Origin: a halophilic archaeon SHRA6
GTDB lineage: Archaea > Halobacteriota > Halobacteria > Halobacteriales > Haloferacaceae
Reading direction: 5' to 3'
DNA: 64,000 bases
Assembly (NCBI GenBank): GCA_005239175.1
Contig: SOPS01000004.1
Span: 744,001 to 808,000, forward strand
This document shows positions 42,732-59,204 of this stretch, one piece after another; the stretch's first letter is position 1; every line of letters starts with the position of its first letter. The notes below the pieces were generated by a model, which saw nothing but the letters and a program-made list of their open reading frames with translations, ran no database searches and was not told the DNA's origin. The position numbers were made by a program, and so were the translations under genes.

Positions 42732-44111
42732 TCATCGTTCCTCTGGTAGGTGAGCCGATCGAGTGGTCCCCGTGACGGATTGTACCGATCGCCCCTTGCT
42801 ATCAGTTTCCAATGCGGACAGTGCTGAAAGCTCTTCCGCCCGCCTGACGAGGCGATATTCGCCGCCTTTTCCGGCGACCTCTGGCGGCCGCGGCCGAGAG
42901 TTGTACGTGCTCGCCATCTCGTATCCGTACGCGCCGGCGATCCCGATCGCAAGGATATCCCCACGTTCCGGGCGAGCCATCAGGCGATCCTCACAGAAGA
43001 CATCTGCAGTCTCACAGATCGGTCCGGCAACGGTGACTGGTGTCTCAGGGCCGTCTCGCGAGAGATTCGAAATTGGGTGGTAGGCGTCGTACATCGCCGG
43101 ACGGAGCAGTGTGGTCATTCCGGCGTCGGTGCCAGCCACGAGCGTGTCACGAGCGGATTTGACTGTGTTCACGCGTGTCAGGAGGACGCCTGCGTCGGCG
43201 ACGACGTATCGCCCAGGTTCGATGGCGAGCTCAACAGGATCGCCTGCGGTAGTTTCGAGTGCTCCGATCGCCGCACGCGTCGTTTCCGCAACCGCATCCA
43301 GGTCCAGTGGCGGTTCATCTTCTCTGTAGGGAACGCCGAACCCACCGCCGACGTCGACGTATTCGAGGTCGATCCCCGCCGAAAGCACATCTCGAGCGAG
43401 ATCACCCATTCGCTCGACGAGCGCGCGGTGATTCGAGAGGTCCTCGCCGGAGATTCCCGAGCCTGCGTGTGCGTGAATCCCCACGACGTCGAAGTGCTCG
43501 GCCGCGTCACGGATGAGCGATTCGGCGCGCTCGATTGGGACGCCGAACTTCGCGGCCGCACCCGTTCGGACCTTCTCGTGGTGGCCCGCGCCGACGCCTG
43601 GGTTGACCCGCAGACAGACGCTGCCGTCAAAGCCGCGCTCGGCGAGGCGCTCGAGCGTGTCTTCTGCACCGACAGTGATCGTGAGTTCTGGGCGATCGAC
43701 CCACAGATCGGTGACATAATCGAGATCTGCGGCTGGCGGGTTAACTGCGGTGTAGTGGATCCGCTCGCCAGGAAACCCGGCGGCGATCGCACGCATGACC
43801 TCGCCCGCGGAGGCACACTCGGCGTCAAAACCCGCCGCACGGACCGTTTCGAGCACCGCCCGTCCAGTGTGTGCCTTCACCGCGTACCGAACGTCGGCGT
43901 CCGGAAACGCCGCGGAAAGTCGGGCACAGTTCGCCGTAACACGGTCGAGGTCTGTGACGTACAGCGGCGACCCGTACGTTTCGAGTAGCGATCGAAGGAG
44001 TTCCTCGTCCCAATCAGCGAGGCGCCGGACCGAGGGGTTCTCACTGGATACAGCCTCGCCGTCTTCGGACTCGTGGCGATCGTCGGACGATGCTCCCTCG
44101 TCAGTTGTCAT
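42732..44111 (-). CDS. lysA: Diaminopimelate decarboxylase
   Basis: 459 residues. Decarboxylates meso-diaminopimelate to lysine. The PLP-binding lysine lies in VRYAVKAHT (about residue 79). 'GIHAHAGSGI' and 'VDVGGGFGVPY' (phosphate-binding glycine loop), 'EPGRYVV' and 'GPICETADVFCEDR' (substrate Cys/Glu region) follow. There is a low-complexity acidic N-terminus of about 30 residues not seen in bacterial enzymes. The ATG overlaps the dapD stop by four bases, so it is coupled to dapD. Confidence 0.96.
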   Translation of the reverse strand: MTTDEGASSDDRHESEDGEAVSSENPSVRRLADWDEELLRSLLETYGSPLYVTDLDRVTANCARLSAAFPDADVRYAVKAHTGRAVLETVRAAGFDAECASAGEVMRAIAAGFPGERIHYTAVNPPAADLDYVTDLWVDRPELTITVGAEDTLERLAERGFDGSVCLRVNPGVGAGHHEKVRTGAAAKFGVPIERAESLIRDAAEHFDVVGIHAHAGSGISGEDLSNHRALVERMGDLARDVLSAGIDLEYVDVGGGFGVPYREDEPPLDLDAVAETTRAAIGALETTAGDPVELAIEPGRYVVADAGVLLTRVNTVKSARDTLVAGTDAGMTTLLRPAMYDAYHPISNLSRDGPETPVTVAGPICETADVFCEDRLMARPERGDILAIGIAGAYGYEMASTYNSRPRPPEVAGKGGEYRLVRRAEELSALSALETDSKGRSVQSVTGTTRSAHLPEER

Positions 44112-44947
44112 TCCCGGAGCGCCTCCTCGCGCCGCGTCGCCTCGAGGGTTTCCTCGGCGACGTCGGTGGCGACGACTGCAGGTTTGTACGCGCCGCCTTC
44201 AAACAGCTCGTGATCGCTCACAGACGACTCGACGTAGCGGGTGAACGCTCGTCGGTTGGCCGGCAGATGACCGAAGATGACCGTCTCCTCGACGAGATCG
44301 TACACTGGGATCCGAGGGGTGAGTAGCGTGTTCTCGCCGACGATCGAGTTCTCGCCGATCCGAAAGCCCGAGGTGACCCGACAGCCCGCCCCAAGCGAGA
44401 CGTTGTCTTCGAGCACAACGGGCGCGTCCTCGACGGGTTCGAGCACGCCGCCAATGAGGGTGTTCGCGCCGAGTTTGACGTTTTCGCCGATCTGTGCGCA
44501 CGAGCCAACGGTGTCACAGGAATCGACAAGGGTGCCGTCCCCGACATAGGCGCCCGCGTTGACGAAGGAGGGACTCATCATGATGCAGTCCGAACCAAGG
44601 TAGGCACCCCGACGGATCGTCGTCCCGTCGGGCGTGTTTCGGGTCCCCCGGTCGCCAAGGTCCTCGGTGTCTCGAAGCGGTAACACGTCGTAGTAGGTCA
44701 CGTCGCCGTAGCGGCGCGGCAGCGTCTCTCTGAGCCCGAAGTTCAGGAGGATTCCCCGTTTGACCCACTCGTTTGCCTCCCAGCTCGTTACGTCGTCGCC
44801 GGTCTTTTCGGCGGCTCGCACCTCCCCGGCTTCGAGGGCCTCCAGAAACGCCTCGAGCGTCGCGTACTCCTCGTCGCCGGCGTCCGCAGCAGTCAGTCCG
44901 TCCTGGTATCGGTCCCACAGCGCCGTAATTTCGGATTGAATTGTCAT
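44108..44947 (-). CDS. dapD: 2,3,4,5-tetrahydropyridine-2,6-dicarboxylate N-succinyltransferase
   Basis: 279 residues. Succinylates tetrahydrodipicolinate with succinyl-CoA. The N-terminal helical domain (1 to about 100) is followed by a left-handed parallel beta-helix with hexapeptide repeats (about 105-230, 'GAYLGSDCIMM', 'GAYVGDGTLVDSCDTVGSCAQIG', 'LGANTLIGG'). Length matches bacterial DapD (about 275). It shows that this archaeon uses the succinylase variant, consistent with dapE. Gap of 24 bases after dapB and four-base overlap with lysA. Confidence 0.95.
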   Translation of the reverse strand: MTIQSEITALWDRYQDGLTAADAGDEEYATLEAFLEALEAGEVRAAEKTGDDVTSWEANEWVKRGILLNFGLRETLPRRYGDVTYYDVLPLRDTEDLGDRGTRNTPDGTTIRRGAYLGSDCIMMSPSFVNAGAYVGDGTLVDSCDTVGSCAQIGENVKLGANTLIGGVLEPVEDAPVVLEDNVSLGAGCRVTSGFRIGENSIVGENTLLTPRIPVYDLVEETVIFGHLPANRRAFTRYVESSVSDHELFEGGAYKPAVVATDVAEETLEATRREEALRE

Positions 44948-44971
44948 TGAGTGTACCTGCGTCTTCGTCGG

Positions 44972-45745
44972 TTAAGTATCGTCGATTACGTCAAAAAAGT
45001 CGTAGCGTCCGGGGGGTTGCTCGGCCAGCCACTCCGCAGCGTCGATCGCCCCGATCGCGAAGATCGATCGATCGCCCGCGCGGTGGCGCAGCGACACCGT
45101 CTCGTTGTTGCCGGCGAGAAGCACCTCGTGTTCGCCCGCAATATCGCCGGCGCGTCGTGCGTGGACGCCAATCTCGCCGGATGACCGGGGGGCCTCACCG
45201 ACTCTGCCGTGGACCCGATCGTCGAGATCAGTCCGAACGCCTTCGATGTCGTCGATGAGCGTGTTGGCGGTCCCGCTTGGCGCGTCGCGCTTGCCGTTGT
45301 GGTGCGTTTCTGTCACCTCGATGTCGTAGCCGGGCAGCGCCTCGACTGCTTGTGTGACCGCACGTCGAAGCGCGGCAATGCCCCGCGAGAAGTTCGTCGC
45401 GTGCAACAGCGCCGTTCGCTCGCTGGCTTCTGCAAGGGCGGTCTGATCGGCCTCGTCGAAGCCGGTCGTCCCCGTGACGAACGCAACGCCGTTGTCCGCA
45501 CAGTGGGCGGCGTACGCCGTGGACGAGGCGGGACCGGTAAAGTCGACGACTGCGTCGGGCGATCGTGCGGCCAGCAGGTCCGCGAAGCGATCGGCCGATT
45601 CGATCTCGACACCGGCGATCGGCTCGTCGACTGGACTTCGGTTGACCGCGAAAGCCACCTCAACAGCTTGGCTGTCCACCGCAATACCGAGTATCTCCCT
45701 GCCCATTCTGCCGTTCGCGCCGGTGACGGCGATCTGTACGGCCAT
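44972..45745 (-). CDS. dapB: 4-hydroxy-tetrahydrodipicolinate reductase
   Basis: 257 residues. The Rossmann start MAVQIAVTGANGRMGREI has the GxxGxxG pyridine-nucleotide motif. The catalytic segment 'TETHHNGKRDAPSGTA' (His-His and Lys) is the DapB signature. Reduces hydroxytetrahydrodipicolinate with NAD(P)H. The ATG overlaps the dapA stop by one base (TAATG). Full length. Second gene of the operon. Confidence 0.96.
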   Translation of the reverse strand: MAVQIAVTGANGRMGREILGIAVDSQAVEVAFAVNRSPVDEPIAGVEIESADRFADLLAARSPDAVVDFTGPASSTAYAAHCADNGVAFVTGTTGFDEADQTALAEASERTALLHATNFSRGIAALRRAVTQAVEALPGYDIEVTETHHNGKRDAPSGTANTLIDDIEGVRTDLDDRVHGRVGEAPRSSGEIGVHARRAGDIAGEHEVLLAGNNETVSLRHRAGDRSIFAIGAIDAAEWLAEQPPGRYDFFDVIDDT

Positions 45746-46662
45746 TATCCGGTCGCCTCCGCGGCCGCTACCTCGTGGTCGCCATCCAGCTCGTCGAGCA
45801 GTTCCTGGAGCCGATCGCGATGCTCCTCGGAGAGCTCCGACAGCGGTGAGCGGATGTGCGGCGGTGTGTGCCCGCGCATCGCCATCGCGGCCTTGACGGG
45901 GATCGGGTTCGTCTCGACGAACAACTGGCGAATAAGCGGTCCCAGTTCGTGGTGAATCGCCCGCGCAAACGCGTAGTCACCGTCCAGTGCTGCACCGACC
46001 ATCGCGCACGTCCGCTCGGGTTCGAGGTTCGCGACGACCGAGATCGTTCCCGTGCCGCCGATCGACAGAACCGGCAGCGTGAGTCCATCGTCGCCTGACA
46101 GGACCGAAAAGTCTGCATCGCGGGTGCGTTCGACCACTTCAGAGATCTGGTTGAGATCGCCCGAAGCGGCCTTGTACGCGCGGATGTTTTCATGCTCAGC
46201 CAGCGCGACGGCAGTGTCCGGCTGGATGTTCTGGCCGGTCCGTGAGGGCACGTTGTAGACGATCTGTGGCAGATCGACCGCGTCTGCGACTGCCGCGAAG
46301 TGATCGTACATCCCCTGCGGTTCGGGCTTGTTGTAGTACGGCGAGATGAGAAGCAGCGCGTCCGCGCCGGCGGCTTCGGCCCGTGCTGAGAGCTCCAGCG
46401 CCTCTGCGGTGTTGTTCGAACCGGTGCCCGCGATGACCGGGACGTCCTCGACAGCGGCAGCGACGGCCTCGATGACCTCGACGTGTTCGTCGTGGGTCAG
46501 GGTCGCGGATTCGCCGGTCGAGCCGACCGGCACCAGACCGTCAACGCCAGCGGCTTCGAGCCGTTGAGCGTCCGCCTGGAGTGATTCGATGTCGATGCTG
46601 TTGTCGTCGGTGAAGGGGGTCACCATCGCCGGAAAAACCCCGTTGAAGTCGATGTTTGTCAT
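45745..46662 (-). CDS. dapA: 4-hydroxy-tetrahydrodipicolinate synthase
   Basis: 305 residues from ATG at 46662 (MTNIDFNGVFPAMVTPFTDD). Condenses pyruvate and aspartate semialdehyde. The Schiff-base Lys164 is in AYKAASGD, the tyrosine relay Tyr136 in VYNVPSRTG, and 'GSTGESATLTHDEH' forms the phosphate/substrate loop. First gene of the six-gene lysine operon. An upstream start at 46821 (arginine/histidine-rich) is rejected. A stem-loop lies 32-54 bases upstream of the start. Confidence 0.96.
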   Translation of the reverse strand: MTNIDFNGVFPAMVTPFTDDNSIDIESLQADAQRLEAAGVDGLVPVGSTGESATLTHDEHVEVIEAVAAAVEDVPVIAGTGSNNTAEALELSARAEAAGADALLLISPYYNKPEPQGMYDHFAAVADAVDLPQIVYNVPSRTGQNIQPDTAVALAEHENIRAYKAASGDLNQISEVVERTRDADFSVLSGDDGLTLPVLSIGGTGTISVVANLEPERTCAMVGAALDGDYAFARAIHHELGPLIRQLFVETNPIPVKAAMAMRGHTPPHIRSPLSELSEEHRDRLQELLDELDGDHEVAAAEATG

Positions 46663-47068
46663 GGCTGTGGATTCGTGTTGGTCGTGGGTCGCATGTCGGG
46701 AGCGATCGTCCCGACAGCAGCGTTTGTGATTGCGTATCGGTGCGTCGCGATCGATGCACACAATGCGTCGACGATCGCATCGCTGTGGGAGTCGGGTGCT
46801 CACCCGGAACGGGGTCGCCACGCCCGCACCGAGCGATCGTTACGCGCGTTTTTTGAGAAAATCTACAGACGCTGCTTTCGAGAGATGTCCGGCCGTGTCG
46901 ATCGCAGCGTGAGTCACACGTGTACGATGGTGAGGAATTGGATTTATACCTTTTGACTCACGGATGAGATCGGCCATCCGCGAGCGGCGATCTGCGGTCG
47001 GTCGTGTGAACCAGAGCCACAAACTACAGAGCGGTAGCTTCAATTACAACCCGAAACAGCGATCGGAC
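46663..47068. other. Divergent intergenic region between dapA and the IMPase gene
   Basis: About 400 bases without a credible gene. It holds an 8-bp-stem inverted repeat near dapA (46694-46716), a T-rich stretch 'GCGTTTTTTGAGAAAA' around 46847-46862, and a TATA-like TTTATA at 46943-46948 pointing toward the IMPase gene. That last box lies about 120 bases before the chosen start, so a leader or an alternative upstream start remains possible. A plus-strand frame 46675-46956 has no recognisable sequence. Confidence 0.6.
46694..46716 (-). promoter_or_regulatory. Inverted repeat in the dap operon leader
   Basis: TGTCGGGA (46694-46701) and TCCCGACA (46709-46716) are perfect reverse complements flanking a 7-base loop GCGATCG. 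The element lies 32-54 bases before the dapA ATG on the transcribed strand. It could be an RNA hairpin in the 5' leader or a protein operator. Role in lysine control is inferred from position. Confidence 0.6.
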
Positions 47069-48142: not shown

Positions 48143-48820
48143 TTATGCTTCGTCACTGGAGGTTTTCTCAGTTTCCTCAGTTTTCTCAGTTTCCTCAGAG
48201 TCGTCCTTGTCGTCTTGTTCAATCAAATCGTCGCGTGGCTCTTCTTGTTCAGTCTGACTGTCTTGTTCAGTCTGACTGTCTTGTTCAGTCTGACTGTCTT
48301 GTTCAGTCTGACTGTCTTGTCCAGTCTGACTGTCTTGTTCAGTCTGACTGTCTTGTCCAGTCTGATCGTCTTGTTCAGTCTGATCGTCTTGTCCAGTCTG
48401 ATCGTCTTGTCCAGCCTGATCGTCGCCTGTGTCATCTCCTACCACACGATCGTCGCCTTCAGTGCCCGGCTCAGTGCCAGTATCCCCGTTGCTATTTTGC
48501 TCGATATCGAGGTCGTCTTTTCCATCGTGTCCTTCTCCAGTGCCGTTATGTTCGTGCTCGTCGCTGGATCTGCCCTCGCCGCTTTCGGCGTTTTCAGGGG
48601 CCCCGTCCTGTGCAGCGGTTCCGTTTCGATCGCCCCCGGCTCCGAGAGGTCGCGGCGCAGGATCTGCGTAGGCGGACTCGTCTGCGGTCGCAGCGAACGT
48701 CCCGGCCGCACTCCCGCTGGCCGAAAAGAACGCGAGCGTGAACCCACCACCGAAACTCGCAGCAAGCACGACGATGACGCAGGCGATTACGACGATCGGT
48801 TTCACGGCGATCGCGCTCAT
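48143..48820 (-). CDS. SipW-tagged acidic protein with hexapeptide repeats
   Basis: 225 residues. The N-terminus MSAIAVKPIVVIACVIVVLA is one membrane helix that ends in 'GGGFTLAFFSASGSAAGTFAAT', the SipW-type tag. The expected cut is after Ala30, as in TasA/camelysin precursors (A|FF). The mature chain is extremely acidic, Gly/Asn/Asp-rich, and carries ten hexapeptides of the form D-(D/S)-Q-(T/A)-(E/G)-Q at residues 133-192. The last segment is Glu/Thr/Lys-rich. There is no TasA fold. Its start overlaps the SipW gene stop by four bases, so it is the last gene of the operon. Probably secreted or surface-associated. Could be a hydrated spacer or matrix polymer. Confidence 0.8.
   Translation of the reverse strand: MSAIAVKPIVVIACVIVVLAASFGGGFTLAFFSASGSAAGTFAATADESAYADPAPRPLGAGGDRNGTAAQDGAPENAESGEGRSSDEHEHNGTGEGHDGKDDLDIEQNSNGDTGTEPGTEGDDRVVGDDTGDDQAGQDDQTGQDDQTEQDDQTGQDSQTEQDSQTGQDSQTEQDSQTEQDSQTEQDSQTEQEEPRDDLIEQDDKDDSEETEKTEETEKTSSDEA
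48245..48424 (-). repeat. Ten 18-bp tandem repeats in the acidic-repeat gene
   Basis: On the given strand the unit is close to GACTGTCTTGTTCAGTCT, with variants (GATCGTC, TCCAGTCT). The 180 bases are exactly 10 units of 18, encoding hexapeptides DDQAGQ, DDQTGQ, DDQTEQ, DSQTEQ and DSQTGQ. The units nearest the C-terminus are nearly identical, suggesting recent expansion or contraction. Confidence 0.92.
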
Positions 48821-49854
48821 TGTTCCCTCCCGTCGTGGTCACTGGTAGATGGCACGTCCGCGTGTGGATGCGTGCCCGCGTCAGCTACGAAGTCAGCGCC
48901 AGGGATCGATTCGGATGCAGTTTGACCGTCTGCATCCGGCACGTCCGGTTCCTCGGCCATCGCAGGGATCCAAGGCTCTGCCGGCGCGTGCTCGTCCAAT
49001 ACGTTGGCGTCTCCATCGCCTCCAGTCTCAGCAGTAGTCCCGCCGTCGGTCGCCGGCACGGCCGTTCCGGGGGTTCGCCCGGCGCTCAGGAGCAGCCCGA
49101 TCGCACCGAGAAACGCGACTGACGTGGCAACCGTGACGGAGATCGACAGAGTCGATCGGAGTGTGTACGCGGTGTACCCGCTGTACGCCGCGAACGGGAG
49201 CAACATCGCCGCAGCACCGATGACGGTGTCACGGGTGATCTCTTCGCCGTTCGTTGCGTCCGCACTGACAGGCAGGACCTCAGTGGCTGATTCCCCCGGA
49301 TCAGCAGTCGTGTCCGGATCGTCCGTCGTGCCGTCGGCTCCGGTGGTCGTCTTCCTGCGTGAGGCGTATATCGACCACAGTTCGGTGACCAAGAGCAAAC
49401 CGAACGGGATCACCACGAGCGCGATAAAGCCGTACGTGGAGTTCCCGAACTGGATGACGTAGCCGATGTAGGGAATCGTCAGCATGACCGTCCCGATGAC
49501 GTTCGTGGCTGGAACCAACCCTGAATCGACGTTGTCGTTGGCGTCACCCTTCGTTTCGAACGCCAGTGTGCCGCCGCTGGTCGTGACCGCAGTCACCCGG
49601 TGTGTGACCGGTGTTTCGGAGGTCCCGCGGAGGAACGTGATTACGTCACCTTCGGCGATCGTACTCGGGTCGCGTTCGTCGACGATGACGACGTCCCCGG
49701 GCGCGATTGCGGGCGTCATGCTCGCGGTGAGGACCACGAAGCTATGATCCGCCCCGACGGTCACGGGGGCCGCGTACACCACGAACGGGGCGACGACGGC
49801 GATCAACAGCAGTACCGCAGCCAGATTGGCATATTTTTTGAGTTGTAGATTCAT
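48817..49854 (-). CDS. SipW-like (archaeal/ER-type) signal peptidase I with C-terminal extension
   Basis: 345 residues from ATG at 49854 (MNLQLKKYANLAAVLLLIAV). The N-terminal membrane helix is followed by the catalytic Ser45 in 'LTASMTPAIAPGDVVIV', His85 in VTHRVTAV (His replaces Lys, the SipW/ER class) and an Asp cluster at 104-110 (TKGDANDNVD). Two or three further membrane helices and a long acidic tail follow. This class cleaves the SipW-tag signal peptides of TasA/camelysin proteins. It lies within the operon of its likely substrates (gap four bases from 49859, overlap four bases with 48143). It is the maturation enzyme of the locus by strong context. Confidence 0.93.
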   Translation of the reverse strand: MNLQLKKYANLAAVLLLIAVVAPFVVYAAPVTVGADHSFVVLTASMTPAIAPGDVVIVDERDPSTIAEGDVITFLRGTSETPVTHRVTAVTTSGGTLAFETKGDANDNVDSGLVPATNVIGTVMLTIPYIGYVIQFGNSTYGFIALVVIPFGLLLVTELWSIYASRRKTTTGADGTTDDPDTTADPGESATEVLPVSADATNGEEITRDTVIGAAAMLLPFAAYSGYTAYTLRSTLSISVTVATSVAFLGAIGLLLSAGRTPGTAVPATDGGTTAETGGDGDANVLDEHAPAEPWIPAMAEEPDVPDADGQTASESIPGADFVADAGTHPHADVPSTSDHDGREQ

Positions 49855-49858
49855 GATA

Positions 49859-51331
49859 TCAATCCTCCGTGCCGTCGAGGCAGACGGATTGGTTGTGTTT
49901 GTTCGTTGCACTGACCAGTGTCAGCGTGTACGCCCCATTGGTAGCGGACAGTTCGGCTGGGAGCGGCCGTGAACAGCTCGTGTGGATGGCTGGCTCGAAA
50001 GTGACGATCGTTCCGTCAGTCGTTGTGCCGCTGAACACGAAGTCCGGGCTATTCGACCCGTTGAAGTCAACCGTTACGTCTTCGCCGACGCGAGCATCGT
50101 AGTTCCGTGTCTCTTGAAGACCATTTCCGGTGACCTGCTGCTCGACGTCGAGAGAGATATCCTCGGGTCCATCGTACGCGAATTGCGCTTGGATTACTCG
50201 GGATTCGCCGTTTTCACACGGGACACAGCCATCATCGGCTTCGTCCTCAAGGGTATTGTCCGCCTCTGCACAGACGAACACGCGGATGTGACTGATCGCA
50301 AAGCGATCGGCGTCTGATCCGTCCCCAGTGCCCGCGCCGTTGTCGTTTTGTCCGGTGTTATCGTTATTGGCGTTGCTCTCGGTGTCATCGTCAGTTTCCG
50401 GCGCAAACCAGATGAGTTCTGGATCGTTGATCTCCGCCTCGTCGTACGTAGACTCTTCGGGGCCACCTTTGACGAGTACCTTGCAGAGTTCACGGTCAGG
50501 CGCATCCTCGAGTGAGACGAGATCGAACCGAACGCCGATCGTTTCGTCGCCGTCTTTCTGGATTGCGTCCGTGATTTCGAGTTCGTAGTTCCCAGCACCG
50601 GGGCCTTCATCGAGTACCAGCCGGTCGCCGACTGCGATCGGCATGCGCTCGTCCAAGCCATCGGCCTTGCCGAGTTCGATACACGAGATGCACTCAGATT
50701 CTGGGACGGGACCGCAGGATCTGCCCTCGAATGGGTTCGTGGCAGCACCGTTCTCGATGTGTCGACACTGCTCAGCACCGAACAACAACTCGAGGGTTGC
50801 TGTCGATCCAGCGAGCGACGGGGGAACATCCGGGAGGAACGTCCAGTACACGTCGATGTGTATTGGATCGTCGGGCTCAACACACCCCTCGTCAGGAATT
50901 TGTACCCCATCGACGAAGGCCCGATTGAACTCACGCAGAGAGTCCCGCTCGAATAGCCGATCGTTGTTGACACTGACCGAGACGTCAATGTACGATGCGA
51001 GCGGGCTTTCGGGGCTCGGACAGAGGGTCGCAAGCCAGACTCTGGCTGGATTTCCGGAGACCGAGACGGTCAACCGCTCTTTTCCACCAGAACCCGGTTC
51101 GATCGGTCCGCCGCCAAAGTCGAACACCACATGGCCGTTCGACTCCTCGCAGTTGGCACAGTCGATCGACAGAGCAAGATCTCCAATGACGAACGAGGAG
51201 GTCATGGCTGTTCGATCGGTAAGGAATGCGTGAGTGCGCGCGCCGGCGCTTCCACCGACAGTGGTGAGCACGCCGACGCCACCGAGTCCCATCAGTAGTT
51301 CTCGGCGTCGAATGCCCGTTTCGCGGCTCAT
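49859..51331 (-). CDS. Diverged TasA/camelysin-like exported protein
   Basis: 490 residues. The N-terminus MSRETGIRRRELLMGLGGVG has a twin-arginine motif, then 'ARTHAFLTDRTAMTSSFVIGDLALSID', a degenerate SipW tag (FLTD for FFSD). The first half (about 40-205) has TasA-like strands 'GPIEPGSGGKERLTVSVSGNPARVW' and ends 'LLFGAEQCRHIENG', the recurrent end motif of the cluster. The second half (about 210-490) has several Cys pairs ('CISC', 'CVPC') and an Asn/Asp/Gly-rich linker, with no named domain. Its start overlaps the 51328 gene (ATGA). Exported surface protein. Role inferred from the cluster. Confidence 0.75.
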   Translation of the reverse strand: MSRETGIRRRELLMGLGGVGVLTTVGGSAGARTHAFLTDRTAMTSSFVIGDLALSIDCANCEESNGHVVFDFGGGPIEPGSGGKERLTVSVSGNPARVWLATLCPSPESPLASYIDVSVSVNNDRLFERDSLREFNRAFVDGVQIPDEGCVEPDDPIHIDVYWTFLPDVPPSLAGSTATLELLFGAEQCRHIENGAATNPFEGRSCGPVPESECISCIELGKADGLDERMPIAVGDRLVLDEGPGAGNYELEITDAIQKDGDETIGVRFDLVSLEDAPDRELCKVLVKGGPEESTYDEAEINDPELIWFAPETDDDTESNANNDNTGQNDNGAGTGDGSDADRFAISHIRVFVCAEADNTLEDEADDGCVPCENGESRVIQAQFAYDGPEDISLDVEQQVTGNGLQETRNYDARVGEDVTVDFNGSNSPDFVFSGTTTDGTIVTFEPAIHTSCSRPLPAELSATNGAYTLTLVSATNKHNQSVCLDGTED

Positions 51332-52104
51332 TGGGTAACCTCTGACTCGTCGAATGGATTGACCGTGTTGTCACAGTCGATCGCGCCGATCTCGATGTCG
51401 AACCCGACGGTACTCTGTTGGTATGCGTTGCCGACCGACTCGTCGATCGACCATGCGAGTCCAAGACAGAGGCGCTCGCCCGGCTCGAAACACGGCGCAT
51501 GTGCCGGTGGATCGAGGAGAACGCCCGTGCCGAGCGGTCCGTCGGTGAGCACATCGAGAGTGCCCGAGTACGGCGCGTCTTGGGGTGCCCCAGCTTCGGC
51601 GCCTTGACAGCCGCCGATGCCGAATATGCCCGTATCGTACCACAGATCGATGTCGAGTACGTCCGAGAGCGCGCCCCCGGAGTCAGTGAGTCGAAGCCAC
51701 AGCTGTGCAGGCGCTGACTCCGGCTCCGGCGTGATGCCGATACTGAGAGTGCCCGAATCACCCGGGAGCACGTCGTCGATCGCGACGACGGGACCGGACT
51801 GTTCGATCGTCGACGCGACGTCGTCTTCATAGCCCGCAGTGTTGTTGTAGTCCCACTCGCCGCCGTCGATCGGCTGGCCGGTGAGAAGCTCCTGGCCGTT
51901 GCCCGTGTCGTAGGTCCCGTACCAACCGACGAGGATGTTGATGTTGCTCGAGTCGGTCTGTGCGAGGGTATAGTTCGTATATTCCGGCTCGTTTGCCGTC
52001 TGCGAACCGAAGCGTCGTGTCAATCCGAGTGCTCCGATCCCGACGGCGCCGGCGCTCGCGAGGAGTTCGCGGCGACCCAGTTGTGGTGGTGTAGTTATTG
52101 TCAT
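51328..52104 (-). CDS. Distant TasA-like exported protein without SipW tag
   Basis: 258 residues from ATG at 52104 (MTITTPPQLGRRELLASAGA). Twin-arginine motif (GRRELL) and hydrophobic segment, but no FFSD tag. The mature part shows the TasA-style block 'DDVLPGDSGTLSIGITPEPESAPAQLWLRL' and the end 'VGFDIEIGAID', parallel to its neighbours. It precedes 49859 with overlapping stop and start. Either cleaved by another peptidase or left membrane-anchored. First gene of the second transcription unit (51328, 49859, SipW, 48143). Confidence 0.7.
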   Translation of the reverse strand: MTITTPPQLGRRELLASAGAVGIGALGLTRRFGSQTANEPEYTNYTLAQTDSSNINILVGWYGTYDTGNGQELLTGQPIDGGEWDYNNTAGYEDDVASTIEQSGPVVAIDDVLPGDSGTLSIGITPEPESAPAQLWLRLTDSGGALSDVLDIDLWYDTGIFGIGGCQGAEAGAPQDAPYSGTLDVLTDGPLGTGVLLDPPAHAPCFEPGERLCLGLAWSIDESVGNAYQQSTVGFDIEIGAIDCDNTVNPFDESEVTQ

Positions 52105-52413
52105 GTGTATGTGGTTCCGGAATCTGTTCGTGTGCCTCCGGACCCGTTTCCGCAATGGGGTGTGGGTGCCCCGGATTGGTTTTCTGTAGCGCGTCTCAGG
52201 GCATATGTATGCATCTGATACCGCTTCCGATTGGGCAGGTAGGATGGTCGATCCACAGTCGTAGACCACCGACAGGAGGTGAGTACCACCCGGTCCGTGG
52301 TCCGTACTGCTCTAATTACTTCGAGATCATGGATGCGCCCAAGGGGTGCCTCCGGAGATTCAGGCTCGAAGATCGAGATGGAAGGCGACGAACGCCGTCG
52401 GTCCGAATCGGCT
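52105..52413. other. Intergenic region between two transcription units of the TasA-like cluster
   Basis: About 309 bases. It holds an inverted repeat GCATATGTATGC (52201-52212) that contains a TATA-like core and may be the promoter of the 51328 unit on the minus strand. No credible gene is seen. A minus-strand frame here (52101-52445) lacks any recognisable sequence. Confidence 0.45.
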
Positions 52414-53970
52414 CTATGCGGGCTGTTCGAACGGATTCGTCTCACCGTCGTTGTGGCGGCACTGCTCTGCAGCGAATCCGATCGCGAACTCGACAGCGTC
52501 TGTCTGGACCTCGTTTCCGACTGTCGTGGGGAGTTCCCATTCGAAGCCGAAACACCGGGTCACCGAATTCGTAAAGCAGACACGTCCCTCCTCTCGAAGG
52601 TTGGCATCCAGCGGGATTCCCGCTTCGAGTGCATCCAGTACTTCCCGCAGCGAGCCCTCGGCGATCACCGTCTCACCGGTGAGGATGACCGATGAGATTT
52701 GTGAGTAGATCTCATCGAGCTCAGTCCCAGTCGGCGAGTCGTAGTACAGGACGGTCCCGTTGCTCGAACTCGCCATGGAGATGAGTGTATTCTGCGCGGT
52801 GCTGCCCGAAGAAACACCCAGCCCGATCGTAAACATCGTGATGTCCGCAGCTTTGGCGTCGGCTGCCGCATCGATCGCGTTCTGAACGTGGTCAGTACCG
52901 GCGCGTTGGGAGATAGTCGGCTGGCCATCGCCGAGAAGGATGATTGCTTGATCGACATCTCGACCGTTGGTGAGCAACTCGTCGGCTGCCAGATCGACAC
53001 CGGCATCCATCATCGTGTTGCCGCCGGCCGTGATCCCCGCGTTGCCGGGCTGGAGATCGTCCGCGACGAGCGAGTGATCAGACGTGAGCGCCTGGACGAG
53101 CGAGCCGCTGGTGTCGAACGTCACGAGCCCGACTCGATCGTTCGGCCCAAGATTGTCTACGAAAGCCAGCGCTGCCGCCTTTGCGTTCTCCATTTTGCTT
53201 CCGCTACCGGAGCCCATCGAGCCGGAGGTGTCGATTGAGAGCATGACGTCTGCGCCCTCGCTCTCCTCACCATCCGCTGCCTGATGGATGTTGTCACAGT
53301 TGTCGTCGTACCAGACCTTCGCCTGGATCGCATCAGCAAGTTGGCCTTCACCATCTGGATCGTCGGTCGGGAATCCGAGGTCGTCAAGTGCCCTGATTTC
53401 CGGGTTGGTGTAGCCGTTCTGCTCGTTGCCGGTCAGCCTCCCGCCGATCCACATGTAGCCGGGGTTGTCGTAGAGGTGTGTACTGAACGTGACCTCGCCG
53501 TAGTCGCCCGGTTTGACGTCAGCGAGGCGGATGAGCGCCGCGTCAAGGTCGCCGGCATCAATCAGCTCTTCGCGACGGAAGCCCTCGCCCTCGCCGGTCT
53601 CGGGATCGAAGATCCCGTTCGCCCCGATGACCCAGTCCTCGGCGCCGGGGTAGCTGTCTCGGCTGGGCACCTGATCAAGCAGGTACACGCCGGTATCCTC
53701 GTCGGTCGGCTCCATGTCCTCGTCGACGAACGTGGCGTCCGGGTAGTGCTGCTGGAGTTCCGCAAGCCGACCACGACCGCCGCGGTAGGTCATCCGGTAG
53801 TCCATCTTCAGGTCGAGCTCCCCAGCGGTGAGCGTGTTGTTCTCGAAGCTCTCCTCGTCGCTGAAGAACGCAGTCGTTCCAAGGCCGGCGCCTGCAGAGG
53901 CGATCCCGATCGCTCCCAGCCCGCCGAGTAAGCGGCGTCGCGAGAGTCCAGTTAGGTTGTTTGTTGTCAT
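52414..53970 (-). CDS. TasA/camelysin-like protein with inserted von Willebrand A domain
   Basis: 518 residues from ATG at 53970. 'LSRRRLLGGLG' twin-arginine signal, then 'GTTAFFSDEESFENNTLTAG' SipW tag (cut expected after Ala34). TasA strands follow with 'ADVKPGDYGEVTFSTHLYDNPGYMW'. A vWA domain occupies about 240-430: MIDAS D247-x-S249-x-S251 (DTSGS), Thr319 and Asp348 (LLGDG). The fold then resumes with 'EWELPTTVGNEVQTDAVEF' and the end motif 'AEQCRHND'. A typical metal-dependent adhesion domain thus sits in a fibre-type subunit. A longer frame to 54063 is not needed. A minus-strand neighbour (54080) has an almost identical signal region. Role as adhesin is inferred. Confidence 0.88.
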   Translation of the reverse strand: MTTNNLTGLSRRRLLGGLGAIGIASAGAGLGTTAFFSDEESFENNTLTAGELDLKMDYRMTYRGGRGRLAELQQHYPDATFVDEDMEPTDEDTGVYLLDQVPSRDSYPGAEDWVIGANGIFDPETGEGEGFRREELIDAGDLDAALIRLADVKPGDYGEVTFSTHLYDNPGYMWIGGRLTGNEQNGYTNPEIRALDDLGFPTDDPDGEGQLADAIQAKVWYDDNCDNIHQAADGEESEGADVMLSIDTSGSMGSGSGSKMENAKAAALAFVDNLGPNDRVGLVTFDTSGSLVQALTSDHSLVADDLQPGNAGITAGGNTMMDAGVDLAADELLTNGRDVDQAIILLGDGQPTISQRAGTDHVQNAIDAAADAKAADITMFTIGLGVSSGSTAQNTLISMASSSNGTVLYYDSPTGTELDEIYSQISSVILTGETVIAEGSLREVLDALEAGIPLDANLREEGRVCFTNSVTRCFGFEWELPTTVGNEVQTDAVEFAIGFAAEQCRHNDGETNPFEQPA

Positions 53971-54079
53971 GGTTTGTATATCCCCGAAGGGAAACTCCCA
54001 CCAGTGGAGTTGAACCACTGTTGCGGCCGCCGGGGGTTCGGCGTGGGAGGGGCAATAATTCACATCGCTCGAGGTGTGG

Positions 54080-55453
54080 TTATACGTCGATACGGAATCC
54101 CAACCCCTCGCTGCTCGGTGGACTCCCTGCTGGCCACGACATTGTGACAGTTCCGGAGATGACGTCGCCTTCGCCGAACGAGACAGTTTGCAGCGTCACG
54201 TTCTGTTGGCCACCGACGTTACCGTCGACCGCGACAGAGTCGGACCCTGTCGGCGAGGTACCGTTAAACGCGATATCGGATACCTCGATGCTCGAGTCGG
54301 CTGCAGACGCTTTCGCCATGACGACGACTGCATCTGCGATCGGGAGCGGCGCGGGTGAGACAACCACTTCTGAGCCGCCGATGTCCCACTTCGCGTCGCC
54401 GTTTTCGATCGTCAGTTCAAACGGAACGGCCTGGCCGTTAGGCCACGCGAAGTTCTCGGTACCCGAGTGAACTGGCGTGTCGTCAGGCAGCCGGATATCG
54501 AGTTCACGGTTCGCCGCGCCGCCGCCACTGCCGTAGATGCCGCGTGCGTGCCAGACCGTCTCGTCAAGCTCAGGGAACCCCTCGCCAGGGACGCTCACGA
54601 TGCACGGGTTTGTCGTCCCGTCGTTGTGTCGTTCCTGCTCGGCGTAGAACTCGAAATCGAACGCAACAGAGTCCGTCTGAATCTCGTTGCCGACATCGGC
54701 ATCGACTTGCCACTCGAAGCAGACACACGTTTCAGCGACGTTCGGAACGTCCATGCCGTCGACTTCGACGAACGGGGTGTCGACGCCTTCGAAGGCGGGA
54801 CGGTTGGCGATCGGCTGGTTCGGATCCCCGTCGCCGTACAGTGGGACACCGTTTTGTAGCGCAGCCATAACTTCGGCGAGCGATCCGGTGGTGATCTCAT
54901 CACCAACCACACCGTCTGGGTCGCAATACGACACCGTGATTTCCATAGCGTCTGCGAGCTCTCCCGCTCCCGGGCCGGGGTCGCCGCCAGTAGCGTCAAC
55001 CGAACTTTCTGGCTCTGTCTGGCCGTTCTCGTCGTTCGCGGTCAGCGCCCCACACATCCACATGTATGCCGGGTTATTGACGATCGAAAAGCAGAACTTC
55101 CCCTCTCCGGAGTCGCCGGGTTTCAGGTCGACGACCTGGATGCTGAGCGGCTCACCAGCCTGAAGGGAGATCCCGGTTTCGTCGTCAGAGACGCTCTGGC
55201 CGATCAGGCCACCCTGGACGTACGTTCCTGTCGGAGCAGACCACTGAGCGAACGAACCCTGATCTTCGGCGTAGTCGACGTGAACGTAGAGATCAAGCTC
55301 ACCAGCGGTGAGCGTGTTGTTCTCGAAGCTCTCCTCGTCGCTGAAGAACGCAGTCGTTCCGAGGCCGGCGCCCGCAGAGGCGATCCCGATCGCACCGAGG
55401 CCGCCAAGTACTCGTCGTCGCGACAGTCCGAATGTATTGTTGGTGTCTGTCAT
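54080..55453 (-). CDS. TasA/camelysin-like protein with extra C-terminal beta domain
   Basis: 457 residues from ATG at 55453 (MTDTNNTFGL). Twin-arginine SRRRVLGG and SipW tag 'TTAFFSDEESFENNTLTAG' (cut after Ala35). The TasA-like domain (about 36-280) has 'VDLKPGDSGEGKFCFSIVNNPAYMW' and ends 'DSVAFDFEFYAEQERHND'. A second domain (about 284-457) has alternating strands and 'GTVTMSWPAGSPP' near the end. It may be an adhesive or sugar-binding beta-sandwich, which I cannot name. In contrast to 52414 and 55581 there is no vWA domain. Probably another fibre subunit or cap. Confidence 0.83.
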   Translation of the reverse strand: MTDTNNTFGLSRRRVLGGLGAIGIASAGAGLGTTAFFSDEESFENNTLTAGELDLYVHVDYAEDQGSFAQWSAPTGTYVQGGLIGQSVSDDETGISLQAGEPLSIQVVDLKPGDSGEGKFCFSIVNNPAYMWMCGALTANDENGQTEPESSVDATGGDPGPGAGELADAMEITVSYCDPDGVVGDEITTGSLAEVMAALQNGVPLYGDGDPNQPIANRPAFEGVDTPFVEVDGMDVPNVAETCVCFEWQVDADVGNEIQTDSVAFDFEFYAEQERHNDGTTNPCIVSVPGEGFPELDETVWHARGIYGSGGGAANRELDIRLPDDTPVHSGTENFAWPNGQAVPFELTIENGDAKWDIGGSEVVVSPAPLPIADAVVVMAKASAADSSIEVSDIAFNGTSPTGSDSVAVDGNVGGQQNVTLQTVSFGEGDVISGTVTMSWPAGSPPSSEGLGFRIDV

Positions 55454-55580
55454 GGTTGTGTTTTCCCGGTTGGGAAAGACCCCGTGCGGTCTCGAACCGC
55501 TCGATCGGCCGGCCATGTCGGGTCCGAACGGGGTGGGCGATGTCCTCGCCCGTGGTCGTAATTCGATCAGGCCGGTGCGA

Positions 55581-57302
55581 TCAGGCTGGGCTCTGTTCCA
55601 TACCCGATCCGTCGTTGTGCCGCGCCTGTTCGGTGTAGAACGTCAGGTCGAACCCGAGGGTATCGCCCTGGACTTCGTTGCCGACGGTAGTGGGGAGTTC
55701 CCACTCGAGGGCGACACAGTGCATGACGCCATCACCGGCGAACGGGTCTCGGCCCGCATCGTCCGCGGGATCCGAGAGTTCGTCGTACGCCGTCGCGCGG
55801 TTCCCGTCGAGTGGGATCCCGTCGCCGCTGGCCAGTTCAGCGAGGATGTTGCCGAGCGTATCCTGCATGATGACCTTCTCGGCGATCGTCTGTGCGGCGA
55901 GGTTGCCGAACACCGACGGGATGTCGAGGGGATCGTCAATGTCGTTGAAGAACAGCGGATCGCCGCCCGATCCGCCGGCAGGACCGGCCATCGCCTGGAG
56001 AACGCTGGCACTGCCGTTGACGTTGATCGTGTACAGGTTCGTCTCAGGTGACGGCGGCGACGGGGGGATTACCCCGGACGCGTCAGCCCGTGCGCTGTCC
56101 GCAGCGTCCTCGGGTGAGGAGAACTGCGATGGACCACTGCCGTTGAACGACTCGCCGTCCGAGAGGACGATGTTCGTCTTCTCGACGCCGGAACGCCCGT
56201 TCGTATCGAGCTCTACCTGCGCATCGTCAATGCCTTCGCCGATGAACGTCCCCGTCGCGATACCGCCCGCGTTCGAGAATGGGTCGGAGTTACCCTCGTT
56301 GACGTTCGGATCGTTTGTCGGTCCAGTTACCACGTTTGCGAGCTTCTGGCGAAGACCCGAGAGCGCGGCGTCAACATCACCCAGATCGCTCGTCAGTCCC
56401 TGGAGGATACCGGTCCGTGGCCCAACGTCATCGTTGTTCTCGCCGTCGAAGTACGCCACGCCGACCTGTACGTCCGCGTTTTCTGCCTGCAGGTAGTCGA
56501 TAAACTGGCGAGCGCCGAGTTCGACGAGGTCGATCTTCGTCGTCTCGTCGTAGGTCGTTCCGTTGACCTGGATCTCGTCAGTACTGACAACGCCGCCGTA
56601 CTGGTTGTACAGCATCGATCCGGAGAAGTCGAGCGTCAGCATGATGTCTGCGGGCTCGGCTTCGTCGTACACGTTGTCGCAGTCCTCGTCGTACCACAGG
56701 GTTGCCTGAATCGCGTCGCCAAGGTTCCCGAGGTTGTTGGGATCGACTGCCAGTTCGGGCTCCGTGGAGGCACCGCCTTCGTCAGAGACGTTGGCCGCCT
56801 GCATCCAGATGTAGCCAGGGTTGTCACACAGGTGCAGCGAGAACGTGATCTCGCCGGAGTCGCCGGGTTTCACGTCGGAAAACTGCACGAGGGTCTCCAT
56901 CTCTTGGCCGGTCACGGGATCGGTCCCGAAGTTTGCCTCCGAGAGGGGTGGAATGTTCTCACAGTCCAACAGGGGAATGTTCGCTCCGTTGCTGTTGTCG
57001 TCGGTCTCATCTGGGAAGTCGCTGTAGCGAACGACCTCGTTGTCGATGACGAGCGACTGCTCGCCGTCGCCGTCGTGGTCTGGGTGAGCACTGACGAACT
57101 CACGGCCCTGGCCGTAGTCGTACGTCTGTTGCCAGTCGACCAGCAGGTCGAGCTGGCCGGTCGTGATCGTGTTGTCGGTGAAGCTCTCTTCGTCGCTGAA
57201 GAACGCGGTTGTTCCGAGGCCTGCGCCGGCGCTTGCAACCCCCACGGCACCGAGGCCGAGGAGCATCTTTCGCCGCGAGATTCCGATTTTCTGAATTGTC
57301 AT
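55581..57302 (-). CDS. TasA/camelysin-like protein with inserted von Willebrand A domain (second copy)
   Basis: 573 residues. 'ISRRKMLLGLGAVG' twin-arginine motif, SipW tag 'TTAFFSDEESFTDNTITTG' (cut after Ala33), then 'FSDVKPGDSGEITFSLHLCDNPGYIW'. vWA at about 218-475: MIDAS D225-F-S227-G-S229 and a late 'IVLSDGESF'. The TasA-like fold resumes with 'ALEWELPTTVGNEVQGDTLGFDLTFYTEQARHND'. The insertion point equals that of 52414. Only one CGATCG occurs in the gene, far fewer than in most of the window. Likely the larger adhesin. Confidence 0.87.
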   Translation of the reverse strand: MTIQKIGISRRKMLLGLGAVGVASAGAGLGTTAFFSDEESFTDNTITTGQLDLLVDWQQTYDYGQGREFVSAHPDHDGDGEQSLVIDNEVVRYSDFPDETDDNSNGANIPLLDCENIPPLSEANFGTDPVTGQEMETLVQFSDVKPGDSGEITFSLHLCDNPGYIWMQAANVSDEGGASTEPELAVDPNNLGNLGDAIQATLWYDEDCDNVYDEAEPADIMLTLDFSGSMLYNQYGGVVSTDEIQVNGTTYDETTKIDLVELGARQFIDYLQAENADVQVGVAYFDGENNDDVGPRTGILQGLTSDLGDVDAALSGLRQKLANVVTGPTNDPNVNEGNSDPFSNAGGIATGTFIGEGIDDAQVELDTNGRSGVEKTNIVLSDGESFNGSGPSQFSSPEDAADSARADASGVIPPSPPSPETNLYTINVNGSASVLQAMAGPAGGSGGDPLFFNDIDDPLDIPSVFGNLAAQTIAEKVIMQDTLGNILAELASGDGIPLDGNRATAYDELSDPADDAGRDPFAGDGVMHCVALEWELPTTVGNEVQGDTLGFDLTFYTEQARHNDGSGMEQSPA

Positions 57303-57395
57303 TGATATGTATTGGTGGTTGGGGTTCGATTCACCCGACGTGGGTGGACTATCCGGCCGGCGATCGGCCGTGGTTATTGCGTACCGTTTGGTTGA

Positions 57396-58259
57396 TTAGT
57401 CGACGATGTCACCGCCGTCGTCTTCCTCACCGCTGAACGGATCGTCGTTGTGGCGGCATTGTTCGGCCTCGAAGAGGACGTCTGCCTCGAAGGAGGCACC
57501 CTGGACAGCGTTGCCAGGCGAGTCGTCCGGCTCGATATCGAATTCCACACCGCCGACGGTGACGATCTCGCCGACATCCGCGTGGCTCGGGAGGTACAGG
57601 TAGACGCAGACCTCTACGGGGTCAGCGACATCGCCTTCGACGCCTTCCATGAGTTCGCACGGGGCGTGACAGTACTCCGGTTCACTACCGCCGATCGCGT
57701 GGATGAGACCACCCTCGGAGAATTCTGCGACAAGCTCACCGAGCGTGCCTGCGAACACCATTTCGGTGTCGCCGTTTTGATCCTCGAGGGAGACCACAGC
57801 GAGCATGTACTCGCTGAGAAGTCCCTCAGAAGTGACGTGGGTAACGCCGTTGGCAGTTCCGGTCGACTCCTCGCTAGCGAGGGTGATCTGCACGTAGCCT
57901 GGGTTGTACTTCACGCACGGGTCCCAGCAGACCTTGTAGCTGTCTCCGGGCTTTGCGTCGGTGATTTCAAGAATACCTGCAACAGATTCCGCCGCAGAAT
58001 CGTCGAGCTCGGCCAGCGCCTGCTCGAACGTGAGCTGGTCGGGGCCGATGCCGTCCTGGTCAACCTCGTAGATCATCTGCGTGACATCGAGCTCGAACTG
58101 GCCGGCGGTGATCGTGTTGCCCTCGAAAGATTCCTCATCGCTGAAGAACGCGGTGGTCCCGAGACCTGCACCCGCACTCGCGACGCCGACGGCGCCGAGA
58201 CCGAGGAGCATTTTTCTGCGGGATAGTCCGATCGTGATTGGTTGTTGGTTTGAATCCAT
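57396..58259 (-). CDS. TasA/camelysin-like protein, single-domain (candidate major fibre subunit)
   Basis: 287 residues from ATG at 58259 (MDSNQQPITI). Twin-arginine 'LSRRKMLLGLGAVG' and SipW tag 'GTTAFFSDEESFEGNTITAG' (cut after Ala37). Strands with 'TDAKPGDSYKVCWDPCVKYNPGYVQI' are the TasA-type KPGD block, and the end is 'LFEAEQCRHNDDP'. No vWA or extra domain. It is therefore the simplest member, and being first it may be most strongly expressed. Cysteines occur at about 111, 115 and 197-201 and may form disulfides. Beginning of the leftward cluster after a 429-base regulatory region. Confidence 0.85.
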   Translation of the reverse strand: MDSNQQPITIGLSRRKMLLGLGAVGVASAGAGLGTTAFFSDEESFEGNTITAGQFELDVTQMIYEVDQDGIGPDQLTFEQALAELDDSAAESVAGILEITDAKPGDSYKVCWDPCVKYNPGYVQITLASEESTGTANGVTHVTSEGLLSEYMLAVVSLEDQNGDTEMVFAGTLGELVAEFSEGGLIHAIGGSEPEYCHAPCELMEGVEGDVADPVEVCVYLYLPSHADVGEIVTVGGVEFDIEPDDSPGNAVQGASFEADVLFEAEQCRHNDDPFSGEEDDGGDIVD

Positions 58260-58688
58260 TGTTGCGTTCTCGACGCCAGAGTGACTCCGACATCGGATAC
58301 CCTCCCCTGGAACTGCAGGGGGGATAGTTACGATCAGCCACGTCACCACAGAACGACTCGTTGAGCGCTCTAAACGCCATATACAGCAAAATTAGATCTG
58401 AGCTAAAGATCCGGATCGGTCTGCATACCAGTGGCAGATTCACCCGGGCGGATGCTCCTACTGAACGGTTCGGTGAGCGTACGCATCGAGACACAAGCGC
58501 CTACCCTCTCCTCCGATGACCGGTTCGAGGGGCCTACGCAACGGTTCAGTATACCTACATGAGGGACCAATCGCGGTATGAGCTTCATTCATATGCCTGT
58601 CGGAGATCATCTGTCATCACATGCGATACGGGGGACAACTGCTCGGCAAGGACTGCACAGATGGACACGTACAGGGGATCAACGATCA
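58260..58688. other. Regulatory region between the TasA-like cluster and the divergent regulator
   Basis: About 430 bases with no credible gene. A hairpin-capable CCCCTG...CAGGGG sits at 58302-58323 on the leader side of the 57396 gene, and 'CATATACAGCAAAATTAGATC' at 58378-58398 is the most AT-rich box, a candidate promoter. The divergent gene at 58689 starts on the other side. Confidence 0.5.
58302..58323 (-). promoter_or_regulatory. Inverted repeat in the leader of the first TasA-like gene
   Basis: CCTCCCCTG and CAGGGGGG flank a short GAACTG loop, giving a stem of six Watson-Crick pairs plus wobble. It lies about 45 bases upstream of the 58259 ATG on the minus strand. It may be an RNA hairpin in the leader. 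Confidence 0.45.
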
Positions 58689-59204
58689 ATGACCCTTGCG
58701 GCCGTACAGATTCACGCAATCCTCGCGAACGAGCGTCGACGTCGAGCGATCGATCAGCTCGTGGCAGCCCGAGCGCCATTGTCTGTCAGCAATCTGGCGA
58801 CCTATATCGCCGAGGACGAGTCGGGCGAGTCACCACCACCCAAGGCGCTTCGTGAGAGCGTCTACGGCTCGCTCGTGCAGACGCACCTGCCGACACTCCA
58901 GTCGGCGGGAGTGATCACGTACGATCTTGAGTCCAAGATAGTCTCGTTGACCCCACAGGCGCGGAATCTCCGCATGTATCAGGAACTGGTTGGCCCCGGC
59001 GGTGTTACGTGGGCAGATTGGTATCGACTCTGTGGACTGGTTGGATTGCTCGTCATTCTCGGCTCGTTACTCTCGGTTCCGATCGTCGCTGCCGTTGACC
59101 CGATCCTCTGGACGAGTGCGGCGCTGTTCGCGTTTGCAGTGCTAAGCGCGAGTCACCTGTGGAGTTATCGATTCTCAATGCCGTTGTGGTTTCCTCGGCG
59201 ATAG
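58689..59204 (+). CDS. DUF7344-type winged-helix protein with two membrane helices
   Basis: 171 residues from ATG at 58689 (MTLAAVQIHAILANERRRRA). The wHTH covers about 10-95 ('RRAIDQLVAARAPLSVSNLATYIAED', 'LVQTHLPTLQSAGVITYDL'), followed by two membrane helices (about 120-140 and 145-165) and a basic end. A longer frame to 58578 adds 37 residues without family features. Divergent from the TasA-like cluster and so a plausible local, membrane-bound regulator of it. Confidence 0.7.
   Translation: MTLAAVQIHAILANERRRRAIDQLVAARAPLSVSNLATYIAEDESGESPPPKALRESVYGSLVQTHLPTLQSAGVITYDLESKIVSLTPQARNLRMYQELVGPGGVTWADWYRLCGLVGLLVILGSLLSVPIVAAVDPILWTSAALFAFAVLSASHLWSYRFSMPLWFPRR

Follow-up and report, generated by a model that had tools for sequence, protein, structure and literature searches.

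We analyzed a 64-kb window of the genome of the haloarchaeon SHRA6 (GCA_005239175.1, contig SOPS01000004.1, 744,001-808,000 of the forward strand) and found at 48143-58259 of this window a locus that is fairly likely to be an operon encoding a heteropolymeric, TasA/camelysin-type surface fibre, with tRNA-like elements, most likely cut, between its tagged genes. The tRNA-like elements constitute a conserved RNA structure and are a more surprising part of the locus than the fibre genes.

A previous sequence-only reading of this region described eight consecutive leftward genes, and all eight open reading frames were confirmed at their coordinates, with preferred starts at 58259, 57302, 55453, 53970, 52104, 51331, 49854, and 48820. 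The genes (named here by their left coordinates, all on the minus strand) begin with four tagged TasA-like subunits. Gene 57396 (57396..58259, 287 aa) encodes a plain core behind a Tat signal and an FFSDEESF tag (TIGR04088, 27.9 bits; core alignment). The product of 55581 (55581..57302, 573 aa; TIGR04088, 25.0 bits) carries a divergent vWA-like insert with a weak Pfam VWA match (17.2 bits), that of 54080 (54080..55453, 457 aa; 28.1 bits) has a C-terminal choice-of-anchor W domain at ~54086-54559 (profile NF041928, 70.2 bits, cut-off 45), and in 52414 (52414..53970, 518 aa; 27.9 bits) a vWA domain is nested in the core at ~52702-53250 (Pfam VWA, 58.9 bits). These are followed by 51328 (51328..52104, 258 aa), a TasA-like subunit with a Tat signal and no tag (hhalign and an alignment of 30 orthologues); by 49859 (49859..51331, 490 aa), a Tat-signal protein that has a degenerate tag, is TasA-like in its N-terminal part, and varies in its C-terminal part (alignment of 24 orthologues); by a dedicated SipW-like signal peptidase I, 48817 (48817..49854, 345 aa); and by 48143 (48143..48820, 225 aa), a membrane-helix protein with a degenerate tag and an acidic repeat tail. 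Divergent from the operon, 58578..59204 (+) encodes a putative regulator of the DUF7344 winged-helix type (Pfam PF24035, 78.9 bits), and almost every complete related locus has a divergent regulator of this type next to its operon. Overlapping or near-overlapping starts and stops, claimed before for the cluster, were found at the 51328/49859, 49859/48817, and 48817/48143 junctions and not between the tagged genes and 51328, where the gaps are 93, 127, 109, and 309 nt; two of these four gaps contain structured RNA. Short tandem DNA repeats at 48230-48420 encode the acidic (EQDSQTG/T) tail of 48143, and the tails of 48143-type proteins vary widely among relatives, being acidic or Asn/Thr/Pro-rich. 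Nearby and outside the fibre operon is an ordinary-looking cluster of leftward lysine-biosynthesis genes at 42732-46821 (lysA, dapD, dapB, and dapA by sequence).

A SipW-type tag, intact or degenerate, had been counted in five of the proteins. TIGR04088 (cognate_SipW) supports four intact tags, scoring exactly 52414, 54080, 55581, and 57396 above its curated cut-off of 19 (25-28 bits); the total becomes six rather than five if the degenerate tags of 49859 and 48143 are both counted. These degenerate tags are plainer in orthologues, among which the 49859-type proteins pass TIGR04088 and the 48143-type proteins fall just under the cut-off (up to 18.7 bits). Genome-wide, only seven genes score above the cut-off, four in the window operon and three in a paralogous operon, and all seven adjoin the two SipW-like peptidases. 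The four intact tags sit behind twin-arginine signals, the signal of 48143 is without a consistent twin-arginine motif, and a TatC gene was found in the same genome. FFSDEESF, KPGD, and a Q-x-R-H-N end motif are common to the four tagged proteins in alignments, as had been noticed, and 51328, earlier read as a TasA-like member lacking the tag, is homologous to the tagged core (hhalign 98.8%, E = 1.2e-16). Pfam Peptidase_M73 (PF12389) matched 54080 at 25.8 bits (cut-off 22.5) and the other three tagged proteins at 17.5-21.4 bits, the matches spanning the signal and the tag only; a Pfam M73 search of the whole genome gave no match at E <= 0.001. The assignment of 48817 as a dedicated SipW-like peptidase with Ser45 and His85 also held: it scored 108 bits with TIGR02228, a model of archaeal signal peptidase I (cut-off 51.85), and both residues are invariant between the two peptidase copies of the genome. 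With the Bacillus SipW model the score was 104 bits, the cut-off of that model being 190.

The predicted mature form of the subunits had been proposed to adopt a TasA-like fold. An AF2 model of the 54080 core, comprising the residues after the presumed cut (pLDDT 83), was compared by Foldseek with 350,542 PDB chains; the top match was the TasA fibre 8aur (E = 3.2e-4, probability 1.00) at a TM of only 0.37-0.39, so that the proposal stands as far as the top match is concerned and the similarity is partial. By sequence, the family profile matches TasA (E = 0.016) over the KPGD and N..Q....F.A.Q motifs, and hhalign against a single TasA sequence aligned only the C-terminal N..Q....F.A.Q motif (65%). 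Sequence and model together suggest that the tagged core and TasA are probably homologous, short of proof. Sialoadhesin matches of the same profile were taken as chance, due to a KPxDSG stretch. In the AF2 model of 52414 (pLDDT 71), an alpha/beta domain interrupts the beta core; the PDB matches of this model are vWA domains, including those of the pilus adhesins Mfa5 and SpaC, and the D-x-S-x-S part of the MIDAS site is present in the sequences of 52414 and 55581.

The paralogous operon (contig C3, 75-85 kb) is diverged and has the same gene order as the window: a divergent DUF7344-like regulator, three tagged genes, a 51328-like gene, a 49859-like gene, the peptidase, and an acidic-tail protein. 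Identities between the two operons are 39% for the 51328 pair, 34% for the 49859 pair, and 45% for the peptidase pair. At the position where two window proteins hold vWA, a tagged protein of the paralogous operon contains a propeller-like insert, which Pfam matches only weakly. When the peptidase was used to query bacterial and archaeal genomes, 33 haloarchaeal loci emerged, mostly in Halorubrum, the nearest being that of Halalkalirubrum salinum (93% identity). Loci cut by contig ends apart, the order of regulator, two to four tagged genes, 51328-type gene, 49859-type gene, and peptidase is kept in ~30 of the 33, and a 48143-type gene follows the peptidase in all 33. Haloferax profundi (L052) seems to have a minimal set consisting of a single tagged gene along with the peptidase and the tail protein. 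In Natronocalculus amylovorans a second, inverted set of fibre-operon genes (L023, 12244-18857, minus strand) adjoins the first. Co-occurrence of the peptidase and tagged genes in related genomes, which had been expected of a dedicated system, was confirmed with the gene order conserved: among 40 relatives including the genome of the window, 17 have tagged genes and all 17 of those have the peptidase (P = 2e-10, genome kinship ignored); 65 of the 72 tagged genes in these relatives lie within 15 kb of a peptidase.

These genes could assemble a fibre as follows. The subunits, with their twin-arginine signals, would be exported via Tat, and the SipW-like peptidase would cut after the signal helix and free an N-terminal strand, FFSDEESFxxN, that may, like the corresponding strand of TasA, insert into the beta-sandwich of the following subunit. 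The donor strand of TasA is the strand just after the SipW cut (PMC9674648), and in TapA the short post-cut peptide alone supports biofilm formation (PMC10151520). By analogy with this donor strand and this peptide, 48143, which has a tag and a low-complexity tail and no sandwich, would act like TapA, starting or anchoring the fibre as a pure strand donor; the tagged subunits would form the shaft and provide adhesion, whether they are plain, contain a nested vWA, or end in an anchor-type domain; and 51328, a predicted sandwich without a tag, is a candidate for the acceptor-only fibre end. A surface fibre or matrix resembling that of tasA-sipW loci, as the sequence-only reading had it, is partly supported by genes and models. 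The peptidase co-occurrence, the gene order, and TasA as the top structural match speak for it, and we grade it no higher because the structures resemble each other only in part (TM 0.38), the signals are of the Tat type, unlike the Sec export of Bacillus, the tRNA-like elements had been overlooked, and the fibre itself is deduced.

We consider it unlikely that the locus instead encodes surface adhesins or matrix proteins that have a camelysin-like domain, are secreted separately, and anchor singly to the envelope without polymerising. The nested vWA and C-terminal anchor-type domains and the strong diversity of the subunits would agree with such proteins, and the fibre has so far been read from genes. 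However, the tag region FFSDEESFxxN is conserved beyond the need of a mere cleavage site and is located where TasA has its donor strand (PMC9674648). Furthermore, a tag-only protein is found in every locus and a tagless homologue in most, as expected of a two-ended polymer, which argues for the fibre.

Each tRNA-like element combines an acceptor-like helix with a variable arm and with a T-arm whose T-loop is canonical; next come a small hairpin and the start codon. The acceptor/T-arm helix is 12-13 bp, and the T-loop is UUCRANN, or UUCGCGA in one subclass. The element before 52414 (53995..54049, minus strand) has a 7-bp acceptor, a 4-bp arm, and a 6-bp T-arm with the loop UUCAACU; it scored 56.4 bits with our covariance model R1, of whose training set it is a member, and when folded by itself it takes up the proposed structure (z -2.7). 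RNA folding placed a small hairpin (53981..53992, minus strand) between this element and the start codon at 53970. The element before 54080 (55478..55535, minus strand; loop UUCGAGA) is less regular. It scored 56.0 bits, likewise as a training-set member, its MFE fold on its own differs from the proposed structure (z -1.5), and the folded hairpin at 55462..55477 (minus strand) stands between it and the start codon at 55453. No tRNA-like element precedes 55581 in the window. First genes, here (leader at 58260-58500) and in related loci, are preceded by another conserved leader (GTAACTATCCCCCC..., including a GC-rich hairpin) and in no case by a tRNA-like element.

When both strands of 1.42 Mb of related loci were searched with a strict pattern of the element, 46 matches resulted, vs. 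0.3 in composition shuffles; 43 of these matches fall, in sense orientation, within the leaders of these operons, and the elements stand 25-70 nt before the start codon. Because the acceptor strand was broken up when all natural elements were aligned with MAFFT, R1 was built from 16 long elements; it gave 65 matches at E <= 0.0014 in the related loci. According to the R1 matches, an element precedes 53 of 66 internal tagged genes (the other 13 have none), none of 33 first genes, and 8 of 30 51328-type genes. Eight of 13 helix pairs have changed on both sides (covariation score 0.361 vs. 0.156 in shuffles), which is partly by construction since the acceptor 5' strand was chosen by pairing, the T-arm being the cleaner part. 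GG occurs in each of the 18 distinct short linkers, as it does in the D-loop of tRNA (shuffle P = 0.0055, kinship ignored). At E <= 1e-3, R1 found five matches in the genome of the window: two in the locus, two in the second operon, and one after a small gene. This lone element (contig C2, 677413-677457) is located just after the stop of a 141-aa ORF and has a strong hairpin behind it. Neither the window nor eleven related loci contain a tRNA gene according to ARAGORN, and the elements match no Rfam family; real tRNA genes and known Rfam families were thus ruled out as the identity of the window elements. In one relative (genome G011, contig C1, 2905968-2906012), an element stands upstream of a gene whose product is secreted and S-layer-like, and ARAGORN calls tRNA-Lys at this element; elements of this kind are a possible source of false tRNA annotations.

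In Haloferax volcanii, a t-element upstream of 5S rRNA is a tRNase Z processing signal (Holzle 2008, 2012, both as cited in PMC4326828), and t-elements are described there as RNase P and tRNase Z substrates in general. Holzle 2012 may list other t-elements. The elements found here are tRNA-like as well: their T-arm bears a canonical T-loop and stacks with the acceptor-like helix, in a regular form before 52414 and a less regular one before 54080. They differ from the Haloferax t-element in being repeated between protein-coding cistrons of fibre operons, and their cleavage is presumptive. Since the Haloferax t-element is a known tRNase Z substrate, we infer "tRNA punctuation" of the fibre mRNAs: the elements are most likely cut by tRNase Z, and possibly by RNase P too, which would yield separate mRNAs with 5' hairpins and would let the subunits be made in different amounts. 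An RNase Z gene is present in the genome. The broader proposition is that tRNA punctuation acts on archaeal protein-coding operons, the elements of at least two unrelated Tat-exported fibre families being cut by tRNase Z and/or RNase P and setting the ratio of TasA-like subunits; this may or may not be so, and we judge the two about evenly.

The elements might instead be binding sites for a translation or stability factor, e.g., a T-loop-binding tRNA-modifying enzyme, and not processing sites, an explanation that we find doubtful. Their distance from the start codon would suit translational control, and cleavage is at present deduced. On the other hand, an acceptor/T-arm helix of the observed length is what tRNase Z reads, the Haloferax t-element is cut (PMC4326828), and the first genes, where translational control would be equally useful, have no element. 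It is highly improbable that the elements are DNA-level recombination junctions for shuffling subunit cassettes: near-identical sequences do recur in adjacent gaps, and the number of tagged genes and the type of insert vary among the loci, but the compensatory helix changes indicate selection on RNA, and the strict matches are nearly all sense-oriented.

Elements were also found directly upstream of TafA-type-signal genes in two relatives (G009, contig C2: 59031, 61625, 62307, 63658, and 66120; G015, contig C2: 2540048 and 2540747), so two different Tat-exported families share the element. Tat-fimbriae (tafi) are Tat-exported haloarchaeal surface filaments (Galeva 2025, as cited in PMC12687288). 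The locus resembles them in its presumed Tat export and in the elements before tafA-like genes of those two relatives; it differs in that its subunits have no TafA-profile match, and in its signal motif and peptidase type. That the locus is itself a set of tafi genes, as the Tat signals, the signal peptidase in the cluster, the weak TafA-profile matches over the signal, and the elements before tafA-like genes might suggest, is so improbable that we rejected it, given a best TafA (NF052520) score of 18.3 bits, over the signal only, against a cut-off of 190 and the separate TafA-signal clusters with a different peptidase type in this genome. NF052520 had no match above 190 bits in the genome. 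The two further clusters with TafA-type signals, Tat-fimbria-like, are at 206000-220000 of contig C3 and 590000-602000 of contig C2, and a separate, different signal peptidase gene is located near each of them.

Compared with the tapA-sipW-tasA operon of Bacillus subtilis, the haloarchaeal locus is alike in its tagged, predicted sandwich proteins, its dedicated SipW peptidase, its protein of tag plus extension, and its best structural match, 8aur. Unlike the Bacillus operon, which uses Sec, it has Tat signals, several subunits, nested vWA domains, an untagged homologue, and intercistronic tRNA-like elements, and the overall structural similarity is low. Among archaea, the bundling pili of Pyrobaculum calidifontis, formed by AbpA, are a TasA-like fibre with reported donor-strand exchange (as cited in PMC9905601 and PMC9674648). 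The best PDB match of the 54080 core is 8aur and not AbpA. To our knowledge, no operon with nested vWA or SipW has been associated with AbpA.

With this locus the haloarchaea would gain a TasA-type fibre operon that is defined and conserved. Its peptidase, its plain and adhesin-bearing subunits, and the candidates for initiator and terminator are individually testable in tractable Halorubrum strains. If the elements are cut, the processing of archaeal polycistronic mRNA becomes a directly testable question, and mRNA processing by the tRNA maturation machinery would be a possible route to fixed stoichiometry of archaeal surface fibres.
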